A stretch of DNA of 64,000 nt from the NCBI RefSeq assembly GCF_020085105.1, contig NC_058046.1, positions 25,424,675 to 25,488,674 on the forward strand. The letters run 5' to 3'. Under the pieces are notes generated by a model. It saw only the letters and a list, made by a program, of their open reading frames with translations, searched no databases and was not told where the DNA came from. The position numbers and the translations under genes were made by a program. Positions 23,810 to 30,700 of the stretch are shown here, one piece after another (the stretch's first letter is position 1; the number at the start of each line of letters is the position of its first letter). Source of the stretch: Siniperca chuatsi (Eukaryota > Chordata > Actinopteri > Centrarchiformes > Sinipercidae).

Positions 23810-25544
<1,735 letters not shown>

Positions 25545-27731: not shown

Positions 27732-30700
27732 ATGGCTTCGTTTAAACCTACGAAAATCCAAGTCTATCCTAAACTTGGAGAGAAAGTCACACAAGACACA
27801 CTGTACTGGAAAAATTACAAGGCGAGTCTCTTCTACTGTATTCTGTCTTAATATTACTGTGAGCAAGAAAAGCGCATGCTTAATTTGGTTTCTCAATCTT
27901 AACAATGCATCGTTGTCTCTCCTCTCACAGGCCCCGGTCCAGATAAAAGAATTTGGATCAATCACAAACATAGACTTCTCCCCAGTGGCTCCACATAACT
28001 TTGCTGTGACAGCATTCACAAGAGTATGTTGGCTTCACCTGTATGAATTCAGCTTAGTTGTGTTTTATTCAAATTAATCAGTGTTCACCTTGTAAAACAA
28101 TTCCTGTCAGTCCACTGAATAATCAAATGTGCAACATTTGTTTGATATTTCTTGTCTTTCTAACACTTGTTTCTATACAGATCCACATTTACGGGCCTTT
28201 CTCCCAGGAGCCTGTAAAGACCTTTACACGGTTTAAGGATACTGCATACTGTGGCAGGTTCAGGTCAGATGGTCAGCTTCTCGTGGCGGGATGTGAGGAC
28301 TCTGTGGTCCGGCTGTTTGATGTCAGTGGCAAGGTGGCACTCCGGATGTTCAAAGGGCACACAAAGTAGGTATCCCACGTGCCACTGTCTGATAGTGTTT
28401 TAATTGTGCTGCCCTAGCCTGAAGACTAGAAGAGAATTAATAGGCTTAATTTCAACATCGTGCTACAATTTGAGGTGTCCCTCTTACCAGATTTTGGCAG
28501 TCCCTGCAGAGGTTATGTTGGAAAAGTTAGGGGAAATACTTGTCCAGGGGAAATGTGTGGAATGTCACAGCCTCTGGCCAGAGCTGCGGGGCAATGTTGC
28601 TCGTGGGGAGAGAACATATCATCTGTCCACTCCTTCAAATCCAAGTTTTTGTTTCTTGCATTAGTAGGGATTTTTCTAAAAAAAAAAAAAAAAATCCTCA
28701 CTGGCCTGTCAGTATTTCAGAGTAGTTCTTAATACTTTCCTATATGTCTCTTTCAATTTTTCTCACTGCTATTGCTCTCATCATTTCAAAATAATTGAAG
28801 GAATACAGAATGCTTCAAGGAATCAAGACCGATCCATAATCCTTTTATTTTGTGCCTTAGCAATAAAATGTGAAAATTTTATTGAGCATACTTTCAACAG
28901 CCTAATTCCTACTGCATAATTTCAGTTTCCACATCTTAAGTTGAATAGTAGAACCAGTCCCTGAAAGTTTAAAAAGTCTACACACTGCATATGTTGGTAT
29001 CAGCATATACAATATTGTTTTTATGGTACTGTATCAAAACCATCAGACCATTCACCCATCATTCTAAGCTGCTATCCTGTTGAGGGCCGCACAAGGCTTT
29101 TGACTAGCTGATTGTGTCTTCTGGAGTTCTTGTGTAGTAAAGGGTTTGTTGAATGATGATTTCTTGAGTGATCCATCGACTGAATTTCATGATGATCTCA
29201 AGAATTCTGACAACCTGTAAACTCTTACTGAAGGCCTGGTCATGAACGTGAACTGATGTAGATTCTGTCTCATTTTATGTCTGCTCAGGGCTGTACATGT
29301 AACAGACTTCACCTCAGACCGTTACCAGATCCTCACAGGGTCAGACGACTACACATGTCGACTTTGGGACATCCCGAATTCCACTGAGCTCACCACCTAC
29401 CAAGAACACACAGATTACATCCGTTGTGGTGTCACAAGCAAACTCAACAGAGATCTCTTCATTACCGGTGAGATGGAAGCATATGTTTTTTTTGTTTGGT
29501 GAGAGAAGTTAAGGGGACAGGAAATTAACTTTTTGGTCCATTAGCGTCAACGTTTGGTGTATTATCTATATATTTTGACACTTTTTGGAGCCAGTAGACT
29601 TTCTTTCTTTTAAATAGAACAACTATATGATACATAATCTGTCACCGTGGCTTTTAGATTAAACTGACTTAACAGGAACAGCCAAAATCTACCAAGGAAG
29701 AAATGAAGGAGTTTGGTCTGTTTTTATGTGACTAACAACTTGATGTTTTTTTTTTTTCCCCCCTAGGATCTTACGACCACACACTGAAACTGTTTGATGC
29801 CCGAGTGGATAAGAGTGTGATGACCATGGACCATGGCCAGCCAGTGGAGAGTCTGCTTCTCTATCCTTCTGAGGGACTCCTCGTCTCTGCAGGTAGCCAG
29901 CAGTATAATAATCATGTTCAGTCAGTGCATCCAGAAAATGTGCCAACTTGTCAGACCACACATGAATTCTGTTAACAATGATTAATTATTTGAATTTAAT
30001 GGAGGGTCCCTAAGGTTGGAACGGGTTGTTGTGCAGGACATAACACGAGTAGGAAATGTTCAAAATTGGATGGGCTGGTCCATGACAAACAACATTTAAG
30101 TCCATTATATGCTTAGTTGTGACTCCAGTCGGAACAAAGACAACCTAAAATTGTTTTTCCTACACTGTTGTCTCCCTGCAAATGATTGCGCTCAAACACA
30201 AATACTAGATTTTATTTACTGATGTTTATCCAGGACATTAAAAAAATTCTCTCTATCACTCTCTTTAGGGGGGCGCTATGTAAAAGTGTGGGATCTGCTA
30301 AAAGGCGGCCACCCTCTGGTGTCACTGAAGAACCATCACAAAACTGTTACCTGTTTGTGTCTCAGCGGCAACGGACAGAGACTGCTGTCAGCTTCTCTGG
30401 ACAGGTACGGGGACAGGTGTATGTTAACAATGGAAATCACAGAGGCCACTCAATCTGTCATGACAGTTGCATACTTATTTCACAAGTAATTTTCATCTGA
30501 ACCTGATCTAATGCAGAGCCTCTGTTTGTCTTTCAGGCATGTAAAGATTTACAACACAACCAACTATAAAGTGGTCCACAACTTTGACTATGCTGCCTCC
30601 ATCCTCAGTCTGGCTTTGGCTGTAAGAAATTACATTTAACCCTTCATGTTTTATTTTTAGATTTTCATGTTTGAAGATGAATTAAGTGTAGCTAGTTGAT

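Follow-up and report, generated by a model that had tools for sequence, protein, structure and literature searches.

Intronic box C/D small nucleolar RNAs (snoRNAs) come free from the debranched intron of a host gene, and their target for methylation by fibrillarin lies across from the fifth base counted from box D or D'. Members of this class carry a C box (RUGAUGA) and a D box (CUGA) joined by a terminal stem, internal C' and D' boxes, and an antisense stretch of at least 10 bases set so that the target nucleotide falls at that fifth base. They are stable RNAs in complex with fibrillarin, NOP56, NOP58, and SNU13.

Uridine 14 (U14) of 5.8S rRNA is a known vertebrate site of 2'-O-methylation. 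Its guide in human is SNORD71 (HBII-239; Rfam family RF00576), which resides in AP1G1 (PMC6466398); this bears out the statement in the original prediction that the human guide is SNORD71 and its host a gene other than UTP15. The chicken homolog, GGgCD1, is described as a 98-nt RNA from intron 11 of AP1G1 with a 13-nt 5' antisense to 5.8S U14 (PMC2653536). Two 5.8S sites are reported for each of frog and human (PMC8797249), and a zebrafish map holds three, which are unnamed in the Danio section of a review (PMC8393311). In human chondrocytes, 5.8S U14 is reported to be less methylated when conditions are osteoarthritic, and cell pools knocked out for SNORD71 are reported to display altered translation (PMC12288042).

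Guide RNAs are also known to occupy more than one host. SnoRNA paralogs in different host introns, the products of trans-duplication, provide one guide function from two introns (PMC2653536, PMC3511168). The second of these sources describes a "constrained drift" in which snoRNAs change places among introns with broad expression, and it allows for copies that become subfunctionalised. Here, we describe an element in an intron of utp15 that is probably a functional intronic C/D snoRNA and a second, diverged SNORD71-type guide for 5.8S Um14, likely an ancient duplicate of the SNORD71 in ap1g1, lodged in a further housekeeping intron. The window, that is, the whole 64-kb stretch of DNA that was analysed, is part of contig C5 in a genome of 719 Mb, probably that of a fish.

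The utp15 intron and its box C/D element

The host gene is identified by its exons. Joined end to end, exons 3-5 match PDB chains that bear the name "U3 small nucleolar RNA-associated protein 15 homolog" (7ruo_A, E 8.3e-77), and a later exon of the same gene matches Pfam UTP15_C; the host is therefore utp15. The element is in sense orientation within the intron, and its D box ends 78 nt upstream of the 3' splice site, a usual placement for intronic C/D snoRNAs. We counted the role of utp15 in ribosome biogenesis in favour of a real snoRNA element in this intron. Near utp15, two open stretches on the minus strand (24384-25363) match the NAC domain and look like btf3 exons, a neighbourhood that we take to resemble the human BTF3-UTP15 region.

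The original prediction described perfect C, D', C', and D boxes together with a terminal stem. On direct reading of the sequence, all four boxes are exact; the stem that joins C and D is present, at 4 bp only (Table 1). The spacings are 20 nt from C to D', 5 nt from D' to C', and 11 nt from C' to D.

Table 1. Coordinates of the snoRNA-like element, its parts, and the surrounding utp15 exons and intron (positions in the window).
Feature	Position	Strand	Basis
utp15 coding exon 3 (WD40)	28181..28367	+	Exon reading and domain/PDB matches
utp15 host intron (third coding intron)	28368..29288	+	GT...AG ends and flanking exons; exon join across the intron matches UTP15 PDB chains
Box C/D snoRNA-like element with SNORD71-type guide	29146..29216	+	Exact boxes; nothing else in the window passed the box scan; weak Rfam C/D matches, under cut-off, along its span
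Terminal stem, 5' half GTTG	29148..29151	+	Sequence; 4 bp
C box ATGATGA	29153..29159	+	Sequence
D' guide GAGTGATCCATCG	29166..29178	+	13 pairs with 5.8S nt 11-23; 13-mer identical in the ap1g1 copy
D' box CTGA	29180..29183	+	Sequence
C' box ATGATGA	29189..29195	+	Sequence
11-nt region before D, containing CTCAAGAA at 29197-29204	29196..29206	+	Complementary to TTCTTGAG, 29161-29168
D box CTGA	29207..29210	+	Sequence
Terminal stem, 3' half CAAC	29211..29214	+	Sequence; box scan
utp15 coding exon 4 (WD40)	29289..29467	+	Exon reading and domain/PDB matches

Predicted pairing with 5.8S rRNA

Upstream of D', the prediction had placed a 10-base match to 5.8S rRNA, with the fifth base at U14. That run of Watson-Crick pairs stands, and it extends through a G-U pair to 13 pairs. 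Specifically, guide positions 2-14 from D' pair without a break with 5.8S nt 11-23, with a single G·U at nt 13, and the A at position 5 faces U14 of the 5.8S sequence used. Positions 15 and 16 add further G·U pairs. The predicted duplex amounts to -23.2 kcal/mol in the utp15 copy and in the ap1g1 copy alike.

The 5.8S letters used for the pairing are presumably those of this genome; nt 10-22 are seen in a degraded genomic copy. The exact 5.8S string is absent from the assembly. The degraded copy, at C6:12915689-12915813 (L035 1501-1625), lies above the Rfam gathering score and keeps nt 10-22 intact, with nt 23 changed. It is the sole 5.8S match among the matches listed, for which the best 39 of 14,304 candidates were scored.

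For the region before D, no convincing rRNA target emerged from the one short 18S stretch that was scanned; its best pairing, 8 pairs plus one G-U, led us to reject that stretch as a target. A short 18S-like fragment lies at C18:27522634-27522662 (L040), amid unrelated DNA with simple repeats, and the 19.8 kb around and beside it contain no Rfam family at cut-off.

Chance expectation and similarity searches

A chance arrangement in an intron is one alternative to weigh. The scan covered both strands of the window and demanded exact C, D', and D boxes plus a stem of 4 bp or more, with one mismatch tolerated in C'; these limits were written after the element was known, though they are ordinary for the class, and the guide was left out of the scan. 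The scan returned one element, that of utp15, and none in 20 dinucleotide shuffles. In a further 600 shuffles, 2 candidates appeared, both with an imperfect C' box, such that the full set of exact boxes with a stem arose in 0 of 600 shuffled windows; this is to be multiplied by the small odds of a guide in register with a known site. In favour of chance, the finding comes from one genome, and by our own arithmetic the 17-base guide plus D' pattern considered below could arise somewhat less than once in a genome this large (with 0 in the reversed control). Overall, we regard an accidental arrangement as scarcely credible.

Similarity searches do not by themselves name the element. A DNA search with 199 bases around it recovered only the self-match in the genome (simple repeats and very common words were skipped), and an Rfam search of the whole window at gathering cut-offs gave no matches. 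A permissive Rfam search over 251 bases, with E up to 10, produced 28 weak matches after 2 overlapping ones were excluded. Of these, 26 are to snoRNA families; the best is SNORD66 (E 0.011), and the remaining 27 have E of at least 0.052. The SNORD71 model (RF00576) scores the element at 19.8 bits against a gathering score of 34, and five other C/D families score higher (20.1-23.6 bits). The Rfam comparison proposed with the original prediction thus ends without a SNORD71 identification, and we rejected Rfam as an identifier here, all of its matches being weak. A bacterial promoter and terminator scan is uninformative for such an intron.

A canonical SNORD71 gene in ap1g1

The same model identifies a better candidate elsewhere in the genome. 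The genome-wide search listed 3 matches, with the best 55 of 84,431 first-look candidates scored, and the utp15 element is absent from those 3. The best match, at C1:17825851-17825930 on the minus strand (L002 1501-1580), reaches 32.6 bits, 1.4 below the cut-off of 34. At this place SNORD71 is the top of 26 families listed (E 1.2e-05), none of which reaches its own cut-off. The flanking exons match chains of the AP-1 complex subunit gamma-1 (E 2.3e-59), which places the copy in an intron of ap1g1. Because this host is the same as that of human and chicken SNORD71, the genome keeps the canonical gene. The other two matches, L003 (25.2 bits) and L004 (23.6 bits), were rejected as SNORD71, since the guide and D' box are missing from the 301 bases inspected at each.

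The guide itself links the two introns. The exact pattern AGTGATCCAYCGNCTGA, guide plus D' box, occurs at 2 places in 719 Mb, the introns of utp15 and ap1g1, and at 0 in the reversed control, in a sequence with some stretches masked as N. A looser pattern, GATGA followed by 3-25 bases and GAGTGATCCA, occurs at 30 places, compared with 11 in the reversed control. All 30 places were read, and a D' box stands in register in 2, again only the utp15 and ap1g1 copies.

These results bear on the Rfam scores and on the original prediction. Given that even the copy with the conserved host falls short, the SNORD71 cut-off is strict for this genome, and the ap1g1 copy would escape annotation by Rfam at this level. 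The prediction of a guide inside the gene of a pre-rRNA processing factor stands with respect to the sense-strand utp15 location and the U14 register, but not with respect to a sole or relocated guide: with a better SNORD71 retained in ap1g1, the utp15 element is an additional copy, and the implied host switch falls away.

Duplication or independent origin

Is the utp15 element a relative of SNORD71, or does it merely serve the same site? Like SNORD71, it carries the D' guide GAGTGATCCATCG in the register of 5.8S U14, lies in an intron in sense orientation, and has the 20-nt interval from C to D' that is also found in the ap1g1 copy of this genome. It differs from SNORD71 in its utp15 host, in the five segments compared beyond the boxes and the guide, in its stem (4 bp, compared with 8 bp in the ap1g1 copy), and in its model score (19.8 versus 32.6 bits). 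With the chicken GGgCD1 it shares the antisense to U14, while the host gene and the greater length of the chicken RNA set the two apart.

The likeness between the utp15 and ap1g1 copies ends with the boxes, the guide, and the spacing; it comprises the C box with one further base, the C-to-D' interval, and the 14-mer TGAGTGATCCATCG. In the five segments outside boxes and guide, no similarity rises above that of shuffled sequence, as the observed scores were reached by 391-1717 of 2000 shuffles. The pair thus departs from snoRNA paralogs in different introns in having no detectable likeness outside the functional elements. This absence, along with a D'-C' spacer, a region before D, and flanks that all differ between the copies, would be expected if a real, expressed C/D snoRNA had arisen independently in utp15, in which case the common guide would reflect a common target and not duplication.

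Several features argue against such convergence. The C-to-D' spacing is equal in both copies, and the shared 14-mer includes a U opposite G13 and a U opposite G24 of 5.8S, common wobble bases at positions where perfect complementarity would place a C; the Rfam SNORD71 consensus likewise has GAGUGAUCCAUC. Moreover, movement of snoRNAs between introns is documented (PMC3511168). We consider an independent origin unlikely, and an old duplication the likelier source of the utp15 copy; a duplicate of ap1g1 SNORD71 would have retained the boxes, the guide, and their spacing while its likeness faded elsewhere. Judged from these elements, the utp15 copy is a genuine-looking C/D snoRNA, probably paralogous to SNORD71 and of SNORD71 type by guide and function.

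Putative function of the utp15 copy

In the proposed mechanism, the utp15 intron would be spliced and debranched, and exonuclease trimming up to the C/D snoRNP would release the element. The D' guide would then direct fibrillarin to 2'-O-methylate U14 of 5.8S rRNA. Guide and UTP15 protein would be co-produced, and methylation of U14 by the utp15 guide would be redundant with that by SNORD71.

One rival reading is a silent or decaying copy. With a canonical copy in the genome, the utp15 copy could be intact in sequence and yet silent, unexpressed or unassembled, with ap1g1 SNORD71 carrying out all U14 methylation. The short terminal stem fits this picture, as does the folding of the RNA: relative to shuffles, the ap1g1 copy folds with a z of -2.55, whereas the utp15 copy, at -0.60 and -0.70, is not unusually stable and gains no support from folding; in addition, its guide region self-pairs. 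Against this, the four boxes are exact, while the ap1g1 copy itself carries a deviating C' box (ATGTTGA), and decay that erased the likeness elsewhere should also have broken the boxes. A silent copy therefore seems to us quite improbable, and a functional guide remains the reading we favour.

The self-pairing is specific to the utp15 copy. TTCTTGAG, at the guide side, is perfectly complementary over 8 bp to CTCAAGAA in the region before D, a match that was noticed post hoc and that 7 of 20,000 shuffles of the stretch before D reach. The corresponding regions of the ap1g1 copy form at most 5 pairs. Owing to this complementarity, the naked utp15 RNA is predicted to fold its guide side onto the stretch before D. 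Opening the guide would cost 9.4 kcal/mol in the utp15 copy versus 8.0 in the ap1g1 copy, and the predicted pairing with 5.8S outweighs this cost in both (cofold energies of -32.8 and -37.4 kcal/mol, respectively). The complementarity is possibly a gate, or possibly an accident. It invites a bolder reading, to which we assign very little weight. On that view, the second 5.8S-Um14 guide, in utp15, would be under regulation: its production would keep pace with that of a pre-rRNA processing factor, and the 8-bp self-complementarity would act as its gate. If this were true, the level of Um14 in this lineage would track ribosome-making instead of depending on membrane-traffic gene expression alone, and variable rRNA methylation would be subject to lineage-specific tuning.

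Significance

Few sites of 5.8S rRNA are methylated, and for one of them the utp15 element adds a second candidate guide in a different host. Neither SNORD71-type copy of this genome is recovered at Rfam cut-offs. A pair of guides in separate hosts would offer a natural test of whether the choice of host gene sets the level of methylation. Apart from that, the case is an ordinary instance of snoRNA mobility; with "constrained drift" already described, a second host is unsurprising. In the literature on snoRNA hosts and teleost snoRNAs that we searched, we did not find UTP15 named as host of a snoRNA, though the element may still have been published. UTP15 does not occur in the main texts of PMC2653536 and PMC3511168, nor SNORD71 in the paper on SnoBIRD (PMC12309372). 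A minor observation concerns the family record: RF00576 is typed as HACA-box in the Rfam table, whereas it is C/D both in the account of PMC12288042 and by the element described here.
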